DNA of 64,000 nucleotides from Candidatus Melainabacteria bacterium (GTDB lineage Bacteria; Cyanobacteriota; Vampirovibrionia; 2-02-FULL-35-15). Numbering within the stretch: position 1 is the first letter of the stretch; each line of letters begins with the position of its first letter. The stretch spans positions 62,001 to 126,000 of the forward strand of contig JACPSL010000008.1 in NCBI GenBank assembly GCA_016193285.1. The letters run 5' to 3'. Shown one piece after another: positions 27,208 to 41,281 of the stretch. A program made the translations under genes and the position numbers. A model generated the notes under the pieces. That model was not told where the DNA came from. It worked only from the letters and a program-made list of their open reading frames with translations, and ran no database searches.

Positions 27208-27392
27208 CTTTCTAAAATTTCTTTCGAATTATCAAACTTTTCTTCTAAAGCATCTGCAACTTCCAGCAACATGCCTAGTCTTCTTAACCTGTCTTCCTTA
27301 CAAATAATATCTTTTGCAATATCTTTTCTTTTTTGATACAGCTCACTGAGCTCTTTTGCTAAATTTCTAAATTCTTCGGTAACTGTTGCCAT
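27204..27392 (-). CDS. Small coiled-coil protein
   Basis: A 62-residue, almost wholly helical, charged protein (TEEFRNLAKELSELYQKRKDIAKD...). It could dimerise as a coiled coil. It lies downstream of the 492-aa unknown gene on the opposite side of an 83-base gap, on the same strand. Confidence 0.55.
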   Translation of the reverse strand: MATVTEEFRNLAKELSELYQKRKDIAKDIICKEDRLRRLGMLLEVADALEEKFDNSKEILES

Positions 27393-27475: not shown

Positions 27476-28954
27476 CTATGCAGCTTCACCTACTACACGT
27501 TTTTTTGCAAAATCACGGAAAGAAGTAATTAAATTTGTAACTCCAGACTTAATATCAATTGAAGGAAACATCTGTGCAACTGATTCATCTTCTAATTCTT
27601 TTTGAACATCTAGAATTTCTTTCCTGAAATTCCCTGTATGATCAAAAATCAATTCGTTTGCTAGCGGGAAGAACTTTAGTGCTGTATGAACTAAAAATCC
27701 AAGTACACCTTTATGGAAGAACTTAGCAAGTATAGGCATACTTAAATTTAATGGTGTAAAAATTGCACCAAACAAATTTGTATAGTATTTAAGTTCTTCA
27801 GAAGTTACTGAATGTGCAATTCTTGTAGCCCATGAAACTATTTTTGCTACATAGTACTTTTCTGGTTCTTTATCAAATACTTTTTCCAGATCGCTACTAT
27901 TGGTTAAAGAAGCATAAAGTTTTTTTATAAAGCCACCTTCACCAGTATCATCAGTAAATTGTTTTGCAAATTGTTGGTATCCTTTATAATCACCTAGTTG
28001 TTTTAAAATACCTGTTAAACACCAAGAAGCAACAGTAGTACCTTTTCCTACTAACCTATCAAATCCTTCATCTACTTTTTTAATTATTCTTTGTAATTTA
28101 TGCTCATTTAGATCCAACGATGTAATTTCAATTTCTCCAATAACTTTTTCATCTTCTTTGTTATTAGGTTTAAGAGATTTATGAATGCCCTGGATTTCTT
28201 TTACATAATTTCCCATACACTCACTAATTTCATAACCCCAAGGATTTATTAAAACCATAAAATCAAATAATTTAACTTTAGGGAATAACGATTTTAACCA
28301 CGGCATAGCAATATTCTGTATAGAAAAAACAAACGGGAAAAATTTAGCAAAACCTATTGGCAGTCTATTATAAGTATCTAATAAAAAAGAAGCTAACTTA
28401 GCAAGTTTTATACCTGCCTTATCATCTCCAAATGCTGTATTTAAAGACTCTTTAGCTTTTAACTCATCATCTTCTTTTGCTTTCCTATATGCAGTAAGAT
28501 TCGAGACAAAATTTTCACTTGTTAATTTATTTTTTACTTGTTCAAAATCATCATCATCCTTAAAACCAAATGATCTAAGAAAAAAATATTCAAGCCATCC
28601 AACTAATGTAGTTCTTCTATGAAAAGCTCTTTCCATTATTTGAGAAAGAAAATGTAAAGCCCCTTCTTGTATTTCACCTTCTTGTGGTACATAACTATCT
28701 TGGCCATTATCTAATTCTTTTTTTATTTCATCTAAATCTCCAACCTCTTTTTTTATTATTAAAATTTCCTCATTGGTTTTACCATTGGAATCTTCTTCAA
28801 ACTTCCAGCCATTTTTATTAACTTCACCACTAGCTACCTTTACTCTTTTTAATTTATCAAGTTGTTCATTAGACAACTGTACTTTCTCTTTTAAGTACTT
28901 AAGGAGAGTTTCTCTTCCACCTTCTAAAACAGTAATTGGATTTGTTGTTATCAT
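27476..28954 (-). CDS. Unknown 492-aa protein with amphipathic/hydrophobic helices
   Basis: I do not recognise this protein. The first 130 residues are acidic and soluble (VSLSNEQLDKLKRVKVASGEV...). The rest contains several moderately hydrophobic stretches (GFAKFFPFVFSIQNIAMPWL, GVLGFLVHTALKFFPLANEL) that look peripheral or re-entrant rather than clean membrane spans. It weakly resembles the 331-aa protein at 40286-41281 in having repeated hydrophobic 'FF/PF...G' segments, possibly distant relatives. The intergenic region upstream carries several CTTAACCT motifs. Confidence 0.65.
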   Translation of the reverse strand: MITTNPITVLEGGRETLLKYLKEKVQLSNEQLDKLKRVKVASGEVNKNGWKFEEDSNGKTNEEILIIKKEVGDLDEIKKELDNGQDSYVPQEGEIQEGALHFLSQIMERAFHRRTTLVGWLEYFFLRSFGFKDDDDFEQVKNKLTSENFVSNLTAYRKAKEDDELKAKESLNTAFGDDKAGIKLAKLASFLLDTYNRLPIGFAKFFPFVFSIQNIAMPWLKSLFPKVKLFDFMVLINPWGYEISECMGNYVKEIQGIHKSLKPNNKEDEKVIGEIEITSLDLNEHKLQRIIKKVDEGFDRLVGKGTTVASWCLTGILKQLGDYKGYQQFAKQFTDDTGEGGFIKKLYASLTNSSDLEKVFDKEPEKYYVAKIVSWATRIAHSVTSEELKYYTNLFGAIFTPLNLSMPILAKFFHKGVLGFLVHTALKFFPLANELIFDHTGNFRKEILDVQKELEDESVAQMFPSIDIKSGVTNLITSFRDFAKKRVVGEAA

Positions 28955-30466: not shown

Positions 30467-33226
30467 TTAACTTCCTAGCTTCCTAACTTTCTCAAATGCG
30501 GTTAATATGTTTTCTTGGGTTAGGACTTGTGGAGCAAGTTGCACAATTGCATCTGTAAATTGTTCATCAGTTAAGTTTAACTCTTGGACACGAATTGCTA
30601 ATTTTTTTGCATCTGGTGCTGGGGTACCTATTTTTTTTACCTTAAGTCCATAAACAAGAGAATTAATCGTTCCTTCCATTAAACCACTTACCCTAGGATC
30701 AAAGTGATATCTAATTACACCAGGACGTTTTTTTAATTCACTTAACATGTCCTCTTGAGTAACTTGTCCTTGAGTGGATTTTACATAGTCTTCAAATACC
30801 TTTTCAACAGTTGCAGGTGTATAGTTCATTACTGTTTTGCCCGCCTCAGCATAATTTACTTGACCTTTAATTCTTCTAGATTTTACATATGGCTCTAAGA
30901 AGCGTTTTGCAAATAATGTGCCTTGCTCTTCTGTAAAAAGTTTATGGAATATAAATATCTTTTTATCTGATCTTCCTTCCCTCATTACACCGTAATCTAC
31001 ATATTTATACAACTGCTCCTCAATTGAACCACTATATCCTTTATCATCAATTGAGCTAACATCAATTTCTTCAGTTAGTGGTAGATTAGTTGTCATAATA
31101 AGAACAACTTTTGTTGATAAGTGGGATTCAGTTCCTTTTGGTTCCATTTGAGAGAGGAATGCATCAGTTGGTATTTCATTTAGGTTAGCACCTTTTCTGG
31201 GAGGAAGAATCTTATTAACTTCATCCATTAATAAAACACATGGTGCAGTCTTGTTTACTGTATGAATAAACTCACTAACAGTTTGAGGCTTTTCTCCATG
31301 TTTAATTTTTACATCGCCTTTCTTAACGGTAACCATACCAGGAGTTAGCAAAACTAGTGGAAGTGCAAGTTGGTTTGCAATAGTTTCAGCAAGAGAAGAT
31401 TTACCAGTTCCAGGTGGTCCTGAAAGTAAAAAAGTTCTATGCGTTGCACTGTTACTATCATTCCCGTAGAGACTTCTTACAGCAGGTTTCAGCACAAGTC
31501 CTTTTAAACCATGCGCATCTACGTATCCTTCTTCATCATTAAAGCAACGGGTTAATTTGTGGTTCAAAGCTAATGCTTGAGCTGGTACAGAATCTAGGCC
31601 TAAGTGTGGCTCTGTAAAAAACTCATATCCTCTTGGAGTAGCTCTAAAGAAAATAGTGTCCTGGACAATTTTTCTACATGATTGTAAAACACGGTTCTTA
31701 TTTTCTTGGTTTACAAACTCCCTATATGGACGTGGTGGATCATTACCAATTGCAATCCTTTTTTCCATCAGTTGATTTAAATATTTAAAGAACAGTAGCC
31801 CTTTCTCTGAATTATTTTGAGTTAATTTCTGTCCTAGTACTTCAGTATCAAGTTTTAAAAGATCTAATAAACTCAAGAGTGCTTCATTAAGGTCTTCTTT
31901 TGTTTTGTAGCTATCAAACTCAGATACTACTTTTAGCAAGTTTTTTCTTTTATCTTCTGGTAAACCACCTAGAACTTCCATCTGGTCGTTATCAAATGAA
32001 GTGAAAAAGCAATTTCTTGCTTCTTCGTTTGACATTGGGGTTATATCATTAGCCCATTTTTTGAACACTACAAATCTCTTTTCATTTAACCGTTGTTGAG
32101 CTTCTAACTTTTCAGCTTCCTCGTTCCATTGTGCTTTTGGGATTTCAGAAGAAAGCTCAAGCACACCGCTTATTGTAGTAGGCACCATTATATGGTAATT
32201 AGGTGAAGTTTCGCCTAATTCATTTTCGTTTTTAAATGCTTCTACAAGCTTTTCTCTAAACTTCTCAACTTCATCTCTGAACCTGCGTGGAACTGAAACC
32301 AATGGCGTCCTTAGATAAAGCGGATCAATTCCATACAATCCTTCTTTTGTTTCTTGCTCTTCAATTGTTCCTTCTTCTACTTTTTTTGCTCTTTCAAGAA
32401 ACTCTTTCATTACAGAGTAGATTTCCATCCTGTATGTTGGTGTCTTTAAATCTGGTACTGGAATCTTGAATCCTCTTATAGGTAATTTCCAGTTTAAAGT
32501 TATTATTCTTCTAATACAGTCAAGTGAAGATTTTTCACCATATATAAGGGGAACTTCATGAGGTTTTTCAAGATACGGAATAAAAATATCTTTTACATCA
32601 TTAGGATCAACTACAGTATCACTTCTTAGATAAAGAGCCTCTAATGCTAATAATAATCCTCTAGCTGTGCGCTTATGTTCTAGGAACTCATCAAGGCTTG
32701 CCTGAGAATGTTGTGTACTGCCAAGCAACTGAATAACTGCCCTTTGTACATCATTCATAACATTTTTTGGTTTATTAAAGTCAGCCTCAAGTATAGCTTT
32801 TGCTACACGCCGTGGAGTTCTTAAGTTCACTGACAGGAGATCATCATTAAAGTATTCTTCCCCTCCTAAAGATTTAACAGCTTTTGCAATACACCCATCA
32901 ATCTCAGATCTTGCTTGTCTAGCTGCAATATTCTTTATAAGCCATTTTGCACCTGCCCAAGCAGGAGGTATTAAAGCAAAAACATACTGCCAAGCTGCAG
33001 CCAGATTTTTTATATCAGCTTCACTTTTTAGCTTTTGGATTAATTCTATTTTTTGCCTAAGATGAGGTTCATAAGCCACTTGATCTTGATTTTCTGCAAC
33101 TCCTATTGAATGTGCACTTGAACTTTCTTCTTCAGGAATAACTATAAGCTTTGCTTCTTTTACAATTATGTTTCCGGGCCAGGTCGGTGGTGTTTGTGTA
33201 ATACTGTTTACTGTAGTCATAGTCAT
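30467..33226 (-). CDS. Large AAA+ ATPase of unknown function (copy 1)
   Basis: A 919-residue cytosolic protein. About 600 residues of unrecognised helical sequence precede a classical AAA+ module. This has Walker A GPPGTGKSS (about residue 605), Walker B VLLMDEVNK (about 665; Asn where AAA proteins usually have Asp/Glu after DE), sensor-1-like VVLIMTTN, and a C-terminal helical lid. Similar length and ATPase position in the protein at 35406-38171 mark them as paralogues on opposite strands around a shared locus. The N-terminal part probably binds the client. The family is not one I can name; MoxR, ClpX and Lon were considered and do not fit. Confidence 0.85.
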   Translation of the reverse strand: MTMTTVNSITQTPPTWPGNIIVKEAKLIVIPEEESSSAHSIGVAENQDQVAYEPHLRQKIELIQKLKSEADIKNLAAAWQYVFALIPPAWAGAKWLIKNIAARQARSEIDGCIAKAVKSLGGEEYFNDDLLSVNLRTPRRVAKAILEADFNKPKNVMNDVQRAVIQLLGSTQHSQASLDEFLEHKRTARGLLLALEALYLRSDTVVDPNDVKDIFIPYLEKPHEVPLIYGEKSSLDCIRRIITLNWKLPIRGFKIPVPDLKTPTYRMEIYSVMKEFLERAKKVEEGTIEEQETKEGLYGIDPLYLRTPLVSVPRRFRDEVEKFREKLVEAFKNENELGETSPNYHIMVPTTISGVLELSSEIPKAQWNEEAEKLEAQQRLNEKRFVVFKKWANDITPMSNEEARNCFFTSFDNDQMEVLGGLPEDKRKNLLKVVSEFDSYKTKEDLNEALLSLLDLLKLDTEVLGQKLTQNNSEKGLLFFKYLNQLMEKRIAIGNDPPRPYREFVNQENKNRVLQSCRKIVQDTIFFRATPRGYEFFTEPHLGLDSVPAQALALNHKLTRCFNDEEGYVDAHGLKGLVLKPAVRSLYGNDSNSATHRTFLLSGPPGTGKSSLAETIANQLALPLVLLTPGMVTVKKGDVKIKHGEKPQTVSEFIHTVNKTAPCVLLMDEVNKILPPRKGANLNEIPTDAFLSQMEPKGTESHLSTKVVLIMTTNLPLTEEIDVSSIDDKGYSGSIEEQLYKYVDYGVMREGRSDKKIFIFHKLFTEEQGTLFAKRFLEPYVKSRRIKGQVNYAEAGKTVMNYTPATVEKVFEDYVKSTQGQVTQEDMLSELKKRPGVIRYHFDPRVSGLMEGTINSLVYGLKVKKIGTPAPDAKKLAIRVQELNLTDEQFTDAIVQLAPQVLTQENILTAFEKVRKLGS

Positions 33227-33290
33227 CTTTTATTTTTTAGAAAAAGTATACAGTCTTTTCTAGGTATCCTCAAGTTTCTTTAATTTGCCT

Positions 33291-33418
33291 TTTTGGTTAA
33301 GGACTGTCAAGTACCCAAAAGAATTTCAAAAACACTAAAGCTTGCTGATAATTTAGTTTTTTAACCCAGATTAAAATAAATATTTAGTCCGGTTAAGAGT
33401 AAGCTGGCTTCTTAACCT
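33291..33418. promoter_or_regulatory. Divergent intergenic region with GGTTAAG/CTTAACC motifs
   Basis: GGTTAAG at about 33295 and 33391, TTTAACCC at 33360 and CTTAACCT at 33411, between the divergent AAA+ and HEAT-like genes. They match the motifs upstream of the 492-aa gene. The rest of the 260-base gap holds nothing recognisable. Confidence 0.35.
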
Positions 33419-33486
33419 AAGTCGTTTAGTATCAAATTAGATAATTTAACATTTCTATTTAAGTAAATTAATATTGTAGATAAACA

Positions 33487-34479
33487 ATGCCACCACCAGT
33501 AAATGATGTAACAAAAGTAGTGAGCTTTCCATTTAGGCCAGTTGGCTTCAAGCCTCAGCAAGGTAAACAAGTTACCACAGATGATATCAAAGATTGGGCA
33601 AGAAAAGAAGATCGTGGTATCATTCAATGCCTACCTCATTTTGCTGTTTGGACAGCTGTAGGAACAATAGCTAGTGCATTAATAGGCTTTGTAGGTATCA
33701 AAAAGGATAGCAGACTTTGTAAATGGCTTGGTGGAATCTTGGGAATAGTTGGAATTGCAAGCAGCGGGTTTGGGGTATATCTTGCAAGACTTTGCCAAAC
33801 TGCCAAAACGGAAAAGAAATCAGAAGAAGTACATGAAAAGTTTTTCTTTGAAACACCTATTACAAATTCTTTGAAAAAAATATCAAAAGAAGATGAAACT
33901 AATAGAGATGAACTTAGAAGAAAATTAATTGGCGAGCACATGAAAGAAAGAGATAAACTTAAAGCTCTATTTGAAAAGTTAAAGACTGGGAATGATGATG
34001 AAGGGTTACGTAAGGAAGCCGAGTGCTGTCTCAATATTATTTCTGAACTAGAAAAAGAAATCAATGATGCAATTACTCGTTTGAAAGATAAAGATGTTAA
34101 TAAGGAACTTAGATTGAAAGCAAGAGACATTTTGAAAAAAGCTTTATATGAACAAAAAGATCAGAAAGCAATGAAAGCATTAGCTGAATGTGCAAAGGAC
34201 AAAAGTGACGATCCAGACATTAGATCAGAAGCATTAATGGCCTTGCCTGAAGAAAGTCATGTTAATTTATTGTTTGATGTACTTACAGACCCAAATGATG
34301 ATCAGGGGATTCGTCATATGGCAGCAACTCTCTTGCGGAATCTTATAGAAAGAGACAATACAGAAGTTATTAATAGGTGCAATAGTCTGGTTAATAGCAA
34401 TGACCAAGAAGTTAAAGATTTTGCAGAAAGTGTAAATGAAAGGATAGAGGAAAAAAAGAGAGATTCGAATAAAAGTTAA
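33487..34479 (+). CDS. Membrane-anchored HEAT-like repeat protein
   Basis: A 330-residue protein. Two hydrophobic helices at about residues 52-70 and 80-102 (AVWTAVGTIASALIGFVG, LGGILGIVGIASSGFGVYLA) form an N-terminal hairpin anchor. The remainder is a charged alpha solenoid with repeated LRxEAxxALP-like units (for example DDPDIRSEALMALP, DDQGIRHMAATLLRNLI) typical of HEAT/PBS-lyase repeats. It is divergent from the first AAA+ gene and leads a co-directional run that ends with the second AAA+ gene, so it may be the membrane scaffold for these ATPases. That role is inference. Confidence 0.72.
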   Translation: MPPPVNDVTKVVSFPFRPVGFKPQQGKQVTTDDIKDWARKEDRGIIQCLPHFAVWTAVGTIASALIGFVGIKKDSRLCKWLGGILGIVGIASSGFGVYLARLCQTAKTEKKSEEVHEKFFFETPITNSLKKISKEDETNRDELRRKLIGEHMKERDKLKALFEKLKTGNDDEGLRKEAECCLNIISELEKEINDAITRLKDKDVNKELRLKARDILKKALYEQKDQKAMKALAECAKDKSDDPDIRSEALMALPEESHVNLLFDVLTDPNDDQGIRHMAATLLRNLIERDNTEVINRCNSLVNSNDQEVKDFAESVNERIEEKKRDSNKS

Positions 34480-34487
34480 TTGCTTTA

Positions 34488-35165
34488 ATGAAGTTAGCTA
34501 TCCCAAAAATCACAGTACTGCCATCAAGTGGGCTTTTAAGAGGAAGGTGTTCAAAGGCTATCTTTATTACAAAACACAATTTACAAATTAATCAAGATGT
34601 TGTTGAAACTGAGACACAACAAGTTACTAGACCAACCGCAAAAAATTGGTTATTTCTTGTTGAAGGACACAAAAAATATTCTTGTGCTGAGAACGTGTTT
34701 TTAGATAGTTTAATAGAGCACTTTGAAATTAGAGCCGAAGATCCAATTGAACCTCCATTTACCGCAAATGTTGCTGAGTCAGCTTCAATTGAAAAACTGC
34801 TTGCTGCACTTTCAATTTTAGTTATGGACTATTTAGATTTTATGGCAGATAGCGATATAGAACAAATGAGAGATGAACAGCTTGAAGCATTTTTTGATCT
34901 GAATGTTAATGCAGTAGCCAAGACTTTTGAGGTAAGTCCAAAAAGATTAAGAAAAGAGTTTGATAAGCTCAAGTGGAATAATGAACATTTACTTGGTGAA
35001 CAAATTCTTAATCTTTCAGAAAAAAGAAGGAAACTAATAGATGAATCAAACTCTTTAAGTAAAACTAAGTTAGTTGGAATACTAAATGAAAATGCCCAAC
35101 CTAATTTATTTGTAATGTCTGGCATTGAGCATGCTACAATTTTTAGTCAAGAAAAAGATATGTAA
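34488..35165 (+). CDS. Unknown protein with duplicated C-terminal module (first copy)
   Basis: A 225-residue soluble protein, 8 bases downstream of the HEAT-like gene. No family recognised. Its last about 70 residues (RKEFDKLKW ... LSEKRRKLIDESN ... FVMSGIEHATIF) are repeated in the next, overlapping open frame, which starts before this gene's stop. The repeat offset is 214 bases, not a multiple of three, which explains the frame change. Confidence 0.65.
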   Translation: MKLAIPKITVLPSSGLLRGRCSKAIFITKHNLQINQDVVETETQQVTRPTAKNWLFLVEGHKKYSCAENVFLDSLIEHFEIRAEDPIEPPFTANVAESASIEKLLAALSILVMDYLDFMADSDIEQMRDEQLEAFFDLNVNAVAKTFEVSPKRLRKEFDKLKWNNEHLLGEQILNLSEKRRKLIDESNSLSKTKLVGILNENAQPNLFVMSGIEHATIFSQEKDM

Positions 35166-35409
35166 GAAAGAATTCAATAAATTAAAATGGGCAGATGAAG
35201 AAAAGCTTGCTAAGCAGCTCTTGCAGCTCTCAGAAAAGAGAAAAAAGCTTATTAGTCAGTCTAATTTACAAAGCAAAGAAAGATTGGTTAAGATATTAGT
35301 TTCCAATAAAGAGCATAAGTTGTTTATAATGTCAGATATTAAGCATGAGCCTGTATTTGCAGTCAAAGAGGTTTGTAAAACTGAGAAACTGGTGGAGCAA
35401 GAAAAATGA
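35131..35409 (+). CDS. Second copy of the duplicated module, other frame
   Basis: A 92-residue frame beginning at ATG 35131 (or TTG 35125), overlapping the previous gene by about 35 bases. Its KKEFNKLKW ... LSEKRKKLISQSN ... FIMSDIKHEPVF aligns along its length with the C-terminus of the previous protein, at roughly half identity. It could be expressed by re-initiation, as a separate gene, or by frameshifting to give a longer fused protein. Its stop overlaps the next ATG (ATGA), so it is translationally linked to the second AAA+ gene. The frame is kept open although diverged, which argues for selection. Confidence 0.6.
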   Translation: MLQFLVKKKICKKEFNKLKWADEEKLAKQLLQLSEKRKKLISQSNLQSKERLVKILVSNKEHKLFIMSDIKHEPVFAVKEVCKTEKLVEQEK

Positions 35410-38171
35410 GAATTGAAAAAGCACCCAACCCTCATCAATTAAAGATTTTCAGTTCTCCACTTGGCAGCGAGATTAAAAAATCTCAAAACTCTGATACCCT
35501 CAAAAACTCTAATGATGTTGTTGATGCTCCCAAAGAGCCATCATTAAGGAATCAAATTTTATTAATCCAAAGAGCCAAGCTAAATCTTGGTCTTGAACCT
35601 TTAGCAGCTAGCAACATAGGGTACTATATGCAGCGCCTGAATAATCATAACTCCGCTGTTTTTGGAAGGAACTCATCATTAGCTTCAATACTTAATAATC
35701 TGTTACTTGAATTAGACAAAGAAAAACCCATTAGTGATGAAGAATGTAAAAAACTGCGGAACTTTGGAAGAGATGCTCAGATTGTCAAAAATTGGCTCAA
35801 GAATTCTATTTTGAAAATTGCATGTGATAGCTCTTATACGATGGGTGCCTTCAATGTCTCTCCAACTATTGAAACCCGAGAGATCGCTGCAAAAGTTTTT
35901 GTAAGATTTCTGGAGTGGATGGGCGGCGCACTAAGTGATATAAATAGAGAAATTGGTTCATTATTAGAATCACCATATTTGTTAGTTCGGCGGCAAGGAG
36001 CTTATGCTGCTCTTAAGACTTACAGGCTTGGTAAGAGATATTTTTGGTACCCTTGTCATTTAGCAAGTGTTCTAGAAAAAGAGAAAGATGATCTTTCACG
36101 GATTATTATGGCTGGAGCAATAGCTTTGGCAGATCCAAAATGTATTTTGACTAAACTCTACAATAATAACGATTTCTCCAGACTAATAGAACTTGTTTTA
36201 TCAGATCCTAACCTAGAAGTAAGAGCTACTCTTTTAGCCGGACTAAGAGACTTGACAGAAGCAGAAAATAAAGCAGGCAGATATTTTAAAAACTTTTCAG
36301 AAGTTCCAGAGCTAACTCCTACAGATAGAGCTGAGTGTTTTAGATATTCTGCAAGATGTGTTGAAGAGTTTATCGATAAGAGACCTCTTAGTGAAGATGA
36401 AGCTATGATATTAAACAATTCTTTTGGTGTTATTGCTCCTTTACTAAAAGGAATAGGAGATGAAAGTATCATAGAAGGTCATGTGCTTGAAGAATATGTA
36501 AGGTTAAAAAATAGGATTGCCCAACTTGATTTATTTAATTTGGTACAAGTCGCTGCTAAGCACAAATTTAAAGATGATAGCGGAGAAGATATAGGATTGT
36601 GGGAGAATGTTTCACCTGTTTTTTATTGGATGTTATTAAGAAGAAGTGAATCTACTAAAAAACCTATGGTAGATTACTTTAGGTTGAAAAGAAAACTTTC
36701 TGAAAAAAAGGAGAATGCCTCAGATTCTCATGCAGTGGAAGTATTTAACAAAGCCTCAAGCAAGATAAATGATGCTATTGAGTGGTCCTTAACTAAAACT
36801 AAGTCAGAGGAGATAAAGTGGGGCGATTATACAGAATTTAATTTAGCAGCAGGTGATCTTTTTGAACTTTTGGGAACATCCGAAAATTTTTGCAAGCTTG
36901 CGGTTTTAAACTTAATTGATGACTTAAGAAAAAATGGGTTAGAGCTAAGTGGTGGTGGAAGGTTTCTACTTCATAAAGCCCTTGATGATTCAAATAGACT
37001 TAAGCTAAAAGATACTTTAAAGTCACTTATTTACTCATCAGAAATGAGCGGAGAAATAGTTGCAAGCCCACCAGCAACAACTGCTCAAGGCAAAGCTTTA
37101 CTTGTCTATAGAGAGATGGCACCATCATTTAAGGACTACTTTGGAATGGTTGATTTAAAAGAAAGAGCTTTGGGAATAGCATTAAGTTCTATAAATAGCA
37201 ATAGATTTTCAAAAGGCCTTTTGTTTTCAGGTGCCCCAGGTACTGGTAAATCACATTTCGGCGAAGTTCTTGCTAATGAATTAGCGTTACCTTATGAACT
37301 ATTATCCGATGGAATGATTACGGAAACTGAGGAAGAACAGCTCTTAATAGTAGAAAGTGCTGAAAGGAAGTACACCCTTGATCAGTACATTGAAAAACTT
37401 GCAAGGCATGGCAGATGTGTTGTATTAGTTGATGAAATTAACAAGATGGCAAACCCCGGTAATCAAGTTAGAGCAAGTAGATTTTTAGTTTTATTTCAAA
37501 AATTACAACAAGCTAATCTACATCCAATATTAATTGCAACAACTAACTTCCCAATCCTAGATAACGTGAATGAATTCCCTATAGATGAAAAGGGTTGCTC
37601 AAGGAAGCTTGACAAGCTTTTAAAAGAGTTTGTCCACCCGGATGTATTTGGTTTCTTTGAACCATGTTATTTATTTCATAAGAAATTAGTAGGCTATGGA
37701 TTTACAAAAGGTTACTTAAAGCATTTAACTCAGAAAGGGGAAATCACTGGTGATATAGATTTTGAAGCTGTCGGAGATCTTGCAAAAGGACTAAGACCAC
37801 TGCAAATAATAAATACAATTTCAGAAATTCCAGAGCACCCGTTTCCTTCTCAAGCTATTAAAAGTGAGCTGAGAAAGTTAAAACTAGACACTAATGAAAT
37901 TAAGCAACTACAAAACTTAATAGCAGGTACAATTAACATACTTAAACTTTCTATTGATGGCAAATTAGATCTTTCTGAGTTAGCTCTTGCAGCTGAAGAT
38001 ATTCCTACTAAATCAATAGCTAAGATTTTAAAAAGTGTACCTACTCCGTTAACACAAACTTCTTTGCTTGAACTTTTTAGAAACTATGACAGAAGACAAA
38101 TAATTCCTCAAAAAGGAGGGATGGGCATCGTAGTTAAAAGACTAAAAGACTTGTGGTCTTGGTTTAAGTAA
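35406..38171 (+). CDS. Large AAA+ ATPase of unknown function (copy 2)
   Basis: A 921-residue paralogue of the protein at 30467-33226. The N-terminal about 590 residues include HEAT-like helical pairs (LSRIIMAGAIALADPKCIL, FSRLIELVLSDPNLEVRATLLAGLRDL). The AAA+ module has Walker A GAPGTGKSH (about residue 610), Walker B VVLVDEINKM (about 672), ILIATTNF as sensor 1 and a C-terminal lid (LAKGLRPLQIINTISEIP). It overlaps the preceding frame by ATGA, tying the two into one operon with the HEAT-like membrane protein. The two ATPases could form a hetero-oligomer. Function unknown. Confidence 0.85.
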   Translation: MRIEKAPNPHQLKIFSSPLGSEIKKSQNSDTLKNSNDVVDAPKEPSLRNQILLIQRAKLNLGLEPLAASNIGYYMQRLNNHNSAVFGRNSSLASILNNLLLELDKEKPISDEECKKLRNFGRDAQIVKNWLKNSILKIACDSSYTMGAFNVSPTIETREIAAKVFVRFLEWMGGALSDINREIGSLLESPYLLVRRQGAYAALKTYRLGKRYFWYPCHLASVLEKEKDDLSRIIMAGAIALADPKCILTKLYNNNDFSRLIELVLSDPNLEVRATLLAGLRDLTEAENKAGRYFKNFSEVPELTPTDRAECFRYSARCVEEFIDKRPLSEDEAMILNNSFGVIAPLLKGIGDESIIEGHVLEEYVRLKNRIAQLDLFNLVQVAAKHKFKDDSGEDIGLWENVSPVFYWMLLRRSESTKKPMVDYFRLKRKLSEKKENASDSHAVEVFNKASSKINDAIEWSLTKTKSEEIKWGDYTEFNLAAGDLFELLGTSENFCKLAVLNLIDDLRKNGLELSGGGRFLLHKALDDSNRLKLKDTLKSLIYSSEMSGEIVASPPATTAQGKALLVYREMAPSFKDYFGMVDLKERALGIALSSINSNRFSKGLLFSGAPGTGKSHFGEVLANELALPYELLSDGMITETEEEQLLIVESAERKYTLDQYIEKLARHGRCVVLVDEINKMANPGNQVRASRFLVLFQKLQQANLHPILIATTNFPILDNVNEFPIDEKGCSRKLDKLLKEFVHPDVFGFFEPCYLFHKKLVGYGFTKGYLKHLTQKGEITGDIDFEAVGDLAKGLRPLQIINTISEIPEHPFPSQAIKSELRKLKLDTNEIKQLQNLIAGTINILKLSIDGKLDLSELALAAEDIPTKSIAKILKSVPTPLTQTSLLELFRNYDRRQIIPQKGGMGIVVKRLKDLWSWFK

Positions 38172-40285: not shown

Positions 40286-41281
40286 ATGGCTGGTGCAACT
40301 TATCTACAAGAAACAAGAGCTCTTAGTACTAGAAGGTACTTACCTTGGAATAATTTTGGAAATATTCAAAGGAATGCAAGATCATTTCTTGATAATAATA
40401 AAACTACAATTAACTATATTGGTAATGGTGGTGCATCTTTAATTAATCTAATAACTTTTATAAATAGTAACTGGACATTTTTAGAATCACTTCAAGATTG
40501 GCTAGAAAAAATTAGCGGGATTTGGACAAAGTTTGCTACAGGAACACAAGGGCTTGTTGGAGGAATTGATCTTTGGGAAAAGAAAAATTTGGTTCCCTTT
40601 TTTGGAAATATCTTAGAAATCCCAATTGCAATATTTAGCAGTGGATTTAATTTATGGTTATTCAGGGGAATTTCACAAGGGTTAGGACAATTTTTTAGAA
40701 TTATAGACCAAAGAGAAAGAGTTAGTGATGAAAATGGGAAAAAAGAAATTATTGGTGGCAACTTTATGGAAAGAGGTTGGCTGAAAAGTCTTGAAGAATT
40801 TTTAAAAGAAATTCCTAAAATAGTTAAAGAGCTTATAGAAAAACCCCAAAATATTAGTAAATTAACACATGGACTAACTCTAGCTTCAATTTTACAGACT
40901 ACTGGTGCCATTATAGCTTTTGTTTTTCAGCCTCTTGGAGCTTTAATAAGGAATATTGGTGGAATAAGTTGTGATTTTTCTCTTATTACAGATGAAAACA
41001 AAAAAATTACTTCTGATGGTTCCTTTAGTGAAGGTAAGAAAAGAGGATTAAACTTAAACTCACGCTTTGTTCAATCAGGATTAGTGTGGGTAAGTGCAGC
41101 ATTTGCAGATGAATTAAAACGAGTTCCATTTATTGCAGAGAAAGTACAAGGATTAAATTTCCTCTCTTACTTTTTCGATAGAGGTGCAAGTGTGTTTTAT
41201 ACTCTAGGAATTCTGGAAACACATTCAGAAAATAAAAAGTTAAGCCTGTATGACGAAGGAATGAAAGTAAATCCAAACTAA
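40286..41281 (+). CDS. Unknown 331-aa protein with hydrophobic stretches
   Basis: I do not recognise this protein. It has several amphipathic and hydrophobic segments (VPFFGNILEIPIAIFSSGFN, LQTTGAIIAFVFQPLGALI) but not a clear membrane-protein pattern. There is no signal peptide. An AGGAAAA lies 8-11 bases before ATG. The texture recalls the 492-aa protein at 27476-28954. It is followed by polA on the same strand after 28 bases. Confidence 0.6.
   Translation: MAGATYLQETRALSTRRYLPWNNFGNIQRNARSFLDNNKTTINYIGNGGASLINLITFINSNWTFLESLQDWLEKISGIWTKFATGTQGLVGGIDLWEKKNLVPFFGNILEIPIAIFSSGFNLWLFRGISQGLGQFFRIIDQRERVSDENGKKEIIGGNFMERGWLKSLEEFLKEIPKIVKELIEKPQNISKLTHGLTLASILQTTGAIIAFVFQPLGALIRNIGGISCDFSLITDENKKITSDGSFSEGKKRGLNLNSRFVQSGLVWVSAAFADELKRVPFIAEKVQGLNFLSYFFDRGASVFYTLGILETHSENKKLSLYDEGMKVNPN

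Follow-up and report, generated by a model that had tools for sequence, protein, structure and literature searches.

The two large ATPases encoded in the window, by which we mean the whole stretch of 64,000 nucleotides analysed here, are paralogous motors that, judged from their aligned sequences, carry complementary catalytic parts, and this is the clear and testable surprise of the gene cassette in which they reside. The cassette itself is real, made of known domains and restricted to one lineage, a family of uncultured groundwater Melainabacteria. We tentatively read it as encoding one machine, a membrane-recruited mixed ring of the ATPases A and B in which A would give an arginine finger to B. 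Its role may possibly lie in membrane remodelling during normal physiology, or in defence.

Architecture of the cassette

In the 1.81-Mb host genome, the gene for A diverges from a plus-strand series in the order HEAT, X, X' and B (Table 1), and the cassette is flanked in the window by a gene of the UDP-glucose/GDP-mannose dehydrogenase family (UDPGDH) and by a gene for acetolactate synthase (ALS). A first-pass annotation had described two divergent AAA proteins of about 920 residues, with AAA modules at a like place, unrecognised N-termini and an ATGA coupling to the second ATPase. The open reading frames confirm the divergent pair and the overlap (at 35406-35409, the start codon of B overlaps the stop codon of the preceding X' frame), Pfam places the AAA core at residues 600-716 of A and 605-716 of B, and beyond this core both proteins have just chance-level Pfam matches.

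Table 1. Features of the cassette, in window coordinates.
Feature	Position	Strand	Basis
ATPase A, 919 aa	30467..33226	-	ORF; PF00004, 66 bits; relatives
HEAT-repeat protein, 330 aa	33487..34479	+	PF13646; hydropathy; alignment
X, 225 aa, fold without assignment	34488..35165	+	ORF; alignment with relatives
X', partial tandem copy of the C-terminal part of X	35137..35409	+	ORF; profile match
ATPase B, 921 aa, paralogous to A	35406..38171	+	PF00004, 40.6 bits; motif table
Walker A of A, GPPGTGKS, residues 603-610	31397..31420	-	Motif alignment
Arginine-finger motif of A, R-E-G-R-S-D, residues 749-754	30965..30982	-	R749, R752 and D754 invariant in 6/6 A
Leader common to A and B, consensus LRxxIxAIQxAKxxLGIExLAA	32993..33064 (A copy)	-	Alignment
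Walker A of B, GAPGTGKS, residues 609-616	37230..37253	+	Motif alignment
Intergenic region between the divergent A and HEAT genes, three CTTAACC boxes	33227..33486	.	Sequence comparison

A consists of the leader, a family-specific N-terminal region, a single classical AAA module and a C-terminal lid. Both window proteins have Walker A, Walker B and sensor-1, and among all copies compared these motifs, with the sensor-1 Asn, are intact in 5/5 B and in 5/6 A. The paralogy of A and B that had been claimed holds for the leader and for the C-terminal stretch of about 480 residues, which profile comparison relates in two parts (95.8% and 100% probability) from about A residue 431-435 to the end. It does not extend to the middle, where profile comparison detected no relationship over about 350 residues. 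The leader, some 25 residues long, is visibly common to both proteins, and hhalign alone gives it no score.

With classical AAA proteins (PF00004, FtsH/CDC48 type), A and B share the Walker motifs, sensor-1 and the C-terminal lid, but their single module follows about 600 residues without a recognised domain, and B lacks the arginine finger. Our searches for characterised families in Pfam, NCBIfam, PADLOC, PHROGs and PDB sequences returned the shared AAA core and the HEAT repeats only, with no strong match to any such family, in keeping with the earlier view that the named families do not fit. Among solved structures, the A profile matches best the sequences of the AAA modules of NVL and CDC48/p97; membership of the CDC48/p97 family is contradicted by the presence of one AAA module and by an NCBIfam score of 38.1 of 802.65 bits. 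Nor are A and B FtsH proteins: they reach 16-21 bits in NCBIfam against cut-offs of 600-1008, show no peptidase match over the cut-off and, by hydropathy, no predicted transmembrane helix in either window protein. Lon, ClpA, RuvB and EccA likewise score below their NCBIfam family cut-offs.

The two-helix HEAT protein described between the ATPases was recovered as such. Its PF13646 score of 30.6 bits (cut-off 27.7; HEAT_2 E=4e-7) identifies it as a HEAT-repeat protein, and scores in relatives reach 70 bits. Two hydrophobic helices at residues 53-71 and 81-99 (33643-33699 and 33727-33783) form a predicted hairpin that is kept in all five aligned relatives. This conserved hairpin is the single feature that supports the proposed membrane tether, and it suggests that the protein is a membrane platform. 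B has weak HEAT matches of its own (best E=0.024); a relation between the HEAT protein and the N-termini of A or B was not supported by hhalign.

X is the best conserved component of the cassette, 42-55% identical to its copies in three other genera, and has no convincing match in Pfam, NCBIfam, PHROG, PADLOC or PDB sequences. Its invariant residues (H30, E59 and G212-x-x-H215) form a pattern that recalls TIKI/TraB enzymes; profile comparison lent no support to X as a TIKI/TraB hydrolase, with no Pfam TraB match and an hhalign probability of 0.1% to one TraB protein. The duplicated gene noted earlier is present as X', whose stretch 35137-35361 matches positions 146-220 of the X profile, but it covers just the last 75 or so codons of X, in a different frame, and no such duplication was seen in the cassettes of relatives. 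In the relative G002, an 847-aa fusion (locus L125, 5707-8250) joins an X domain to a B-like segment, followed by HEAT repeats and a coiled-coil-like end. Such a fusion hints that X and the B arm are physically linked. This fusion gene stands near the site where the window holds the cassette.

Arginine fingers, present in A and missing from B

The arginine finger of an AAA enzyme acts in trans, on ATP bound by the neighbouring subunit (PMC9265785). All six full-length A proteins keep the R-x-x-R motif of the second region of homology; it is missing from the five B proteins that reach this region, every one of which carries the identical three-residue deletion. In alignment, the A motif, R-x-(G/K)-R-x-D, corresponds to LRPGRFD, the arginine-finger segment of the FtsH encoded in the same genome, and the A copy of G005 reads ALRPGRFDH, a motif of just this type. 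B forms a single group (support 90/98) in a tree built from the AAA and lid parts, and the A/B asymmetry can thus be regarded as inherited. A is weakly resolved in this tree, where the positions of two degenerate G003 proteins are unsure owing to long branches.

A further piece of evidence comes from A-type proteins that have lost the capacity to bind ATP. The protein of G006:C24 has degenerate Walker A and B motifs (GPPEANKL, FFGDAD) and lacks part of the lid, but retains RGGR; a 293-aa protein of G003, which sits in B's divergent position adjoining an intact A, has likewise lost Walker A and B (GPNQAELN, YLNGAE) and retains RIGR. Since ATP binding is lost while the trans-acting arginine is retained, these proteins may function as arginine donors. 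Alternatively, they could be decaying pseudogenes, given the partial loss of the lid at G006:C24 and a 798-aa A-like protein of G003 that is without the arginine motif. A third A-type remnant, in the host genome, retains one arginine. B, for its part, could use an arginine from some unrecognised position.

The retention of the finger in A, its deletion in B and its persistence in ATP-dead A-type proteins lead us to the mixed ring. A and B would assemble into one AAA ring, and both would bind ATP. The arginine fingers of A would complete and trigger ATP sites on adjacent subunits, those of B and also those of A; an ATP site facing B would be slow or silent. Anchored in the membrane through its helix hairpin, the HEAT protein would recruit the ring there as a docking platform, and X would be an adaptor or a substrate, expressed from the same operon as HEAT and B, with A made divergently. 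The ring would then spend ATP to remodel a membrane-associated target. One-ring assembly, membrane docking and remodelling are steps that we infer. As to the remodelling function proposed at the outset, a mixed ring is what the arginine-finger asymmetry leads one to expect, but the FtsH-like aromatic pore loop is absent from its expected place; because a longer insert replaces this segment in both A and B, substrate threading is unsupported.

It is conceivable, although we have our doubts, that the cassette represents a bacterial case, of independent origin, of the Torsin-LAP1 type, namely a membrane-docked mixed ring in which one paralogue, its arginine finger lost, would rely on the other, and in which further, ATP-dead paralogues would have become arginine donors. 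LAP1, which is without nucleotide-binding motifs, supplies the arginine finger to Torsin in a proposed alternating ring (PMC4358337). The likeness, the closest among known systems, would lie in the logic of a split catalytic site and not in descent, Torsin-LAP1 being eukaryotic and showing no detected sequence relationship to the cassette; A and B have the corresponding sequence pattern, and the corresponding assembly is presumed. The degenerate A proteins of G006:C24 and G003 resemble LAP1 in motif content, whereas A, the usual donor, has a complete ATPase site of its own and leaves the membrane part to another protein, HEAT. Two AAA subunits per ring are also found in Pex1/Pex6 and Yta10/Yta12, and Pex1/Pex6 has a membrane partner (PMC9265785), as the proposed A/B ring would have in the HEAT protein. 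In contrast to A and B, Pex1 and Pex6 carry two AAA domains each, with arginine fingers kept in D2 of both (PMC9265785), and for neither pair did we find a sequence relationship to A/B beyond the AAA core.

A and B might instead be two independent homo-oligomeric ATPases, with B acting as a slow hydrolyser or an ATP-bound switch. We hold this to be quite unlikely. G003 has A without B, and the unrelated middle regions of A and B are compatible with separate partners; yet B occurs only alongside an intact A in the same genome, every full copy has the divergent pairing, and leader and C-terminal tail are common to both proteins, whose motif loss is complementary. If the mixed A/B ring is right, split-active-site AAA pairs arose in bacteria within one small family, and the intact, one-sided and ATP-dead copies found side by side would make the evolution of obligate hetero-rings testable. 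It would also add an undescribed accessory membrane machine to the uncultured Melainabacteria, a sister group of Cyanobacteria.

Distribution, genomic sites and neighbouring genes

The layout A | HEAT-X-B recurs in G002, G006 and G005, which represent three other genera of the family, so that just four full cassettes are known, in four genera; relatives include those in the Melainabacteria MAGs MFRN01000043, DUDS01000032 and JACOTS010000058. Identity to the window copy amounts to 34-38% for A, 42-55% for X and 28-39% for B, and the gaps within HEAT-X-B measure at most 24 bp, except for the X' insertion in the window. The gene order within the cassette is hence conserved in relatives, as had been asked of the neighbourhood; its flanks are not. 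Profile searches found A in 5/11 and X in 4/11 genomes of the family. Among 382 genomes of the class there was no full A or X relative outside the family, the sole X match elsewhere covering 57 residues (E=7e-4), and a search of 386 genomes of the phylum with the A N-terminus gave no match beyond this family. The proposed lineage specificity stands in these genomes, with the A-specific N-terminus and X confined to one family.

Not all copies are complete. G003 lacks X and has, besides A, two degenerate A-like proteins, and G006 holds a second, variant copy with a shortened B and a different HEAT protein of 390 aa. The host genome contains copies or remnants at C8, C10/C17 and C25: contig C17 has a HEAT paralogue with an A remnant and contig C10 a B with a 796-aa HEAT protein, a second set whose parts we take to form one locus, and C25 carries a third remnant. 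The UDPGDH-ALS site is without the cassette in the eight relatives whose site was read (G001-G004, G006, G007, G009 and G010), and G002 and G006 carry it at other sites. These differing sites and the decayed extra copies mark the cassette as accessory. In G004, the UDPGDH-ALS gap holds a different unknown 665-aa ORF (L148, 924-2921), and the gap may thus be an insertion hot spot. Candidate mobile-element ends were limited to short imperfect repeats, none at the cassette borders, and the window copy proved to have no terminal repeats around it. A viral, plasmid or phage origin was likewise rejected, as the viral, plasmid and phage collections searched contain no cassette relatives.

The extra copies, the partial X duplication and the domain shuffling evident in the G002 fusion would also befit a lineage-specific cluster that is selfish or in decay, with genes that undergo duplication and recombination and encode no single conserved machine. 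Full-length frames, intact catalytic motifs and one gene order kept in four genera at low identity make this highly improbable.

The defence role proposed for the locus has circumstantial support, whereas for secretion we found none. An anti-phage or conflict system would here be an accessory ATPase cassette with the membrane-bound HEAT protein as effector or sensor arm, gained, moved and lost between genomes, and its patchy occurrence, differing sites and decayed copies fit this description. So do the neighbours of other copies: two copies have a Fic gene less than 1 kb away and a third has one within 3 kb, and AbiEi/AbiEii lie between the A-related genes of the G003 locus, an association above simple expectation (rough P 0.0002-0.0007) that was chosen post hoc, having been noticed before it was tested. 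Nevertheless, we judge a conflict system unlikely. PADLOC matches nothing beyond the AAA core that such ATPases have in common, and HEAT, X, A and B contain no recognised killing domain such as a nuclease or protease; the phages, plasmids and viral contigs searched hold no relatives; and the window copy resides among core genes and has a promoter box in common with conserved neighbours. IetA/IteA (NF042959 in PADLOC) is, like A and B, a bacterial AAA ATPase, and it belongs to a conflict system, but the cassette reaches 29 of the required 510 bits and has no recognised protease partner beside A or B. For IetAS and the other PADLOC defence systems alike, we found no family-level ATPase match together with a partner gene.

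Boxes in the divergent intergenic region

The three CTTAACC boxes between A and HEAT lie at 33295-33301 (-), 33391-33397 (-) and 33411-33417 (+), and the conserved block upstream of the HEAT gene contains the imperfect dyad TTAACC-N6-GTTTAG. CTTAACC was rejected as a Pho box. The published cyanobacterial Pho (SphR) box, CTTAACCT, forms tandem repeats with 3-bp spacing (PMC1906773); an 8-mer matches CTTAACCT, and tandem repeats of that spacing were not seen.

Elsewhere in the window, CTTAACC occurs at 27283, 29083 and 29146. Over the loci L077, L078, L080, L081, L084, L125 and L143-L149 it sits almost wholly in intergenic DNA, around the cassette and two conserved unknown gene families, with 41 occurrences in 31 kb of intergenic and 4 in 253 kb of coding sequence, counts to which non-independent loci contribute. 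The whole genome has 14 copies of TTCTTAACCT, of which 4 fall within 6.2 kb of the window, and this concentration raises the prospect that the box marks a small regulon. The two unknown protein families, encoded at 27476-28954 and 40286-41281 of the window and without a Pfam match, are found next to UDPGDH and DNA polymerase I, in unchanged position, in most of the relatives that were read, and the second of them often occurs in two or three tandem copies.
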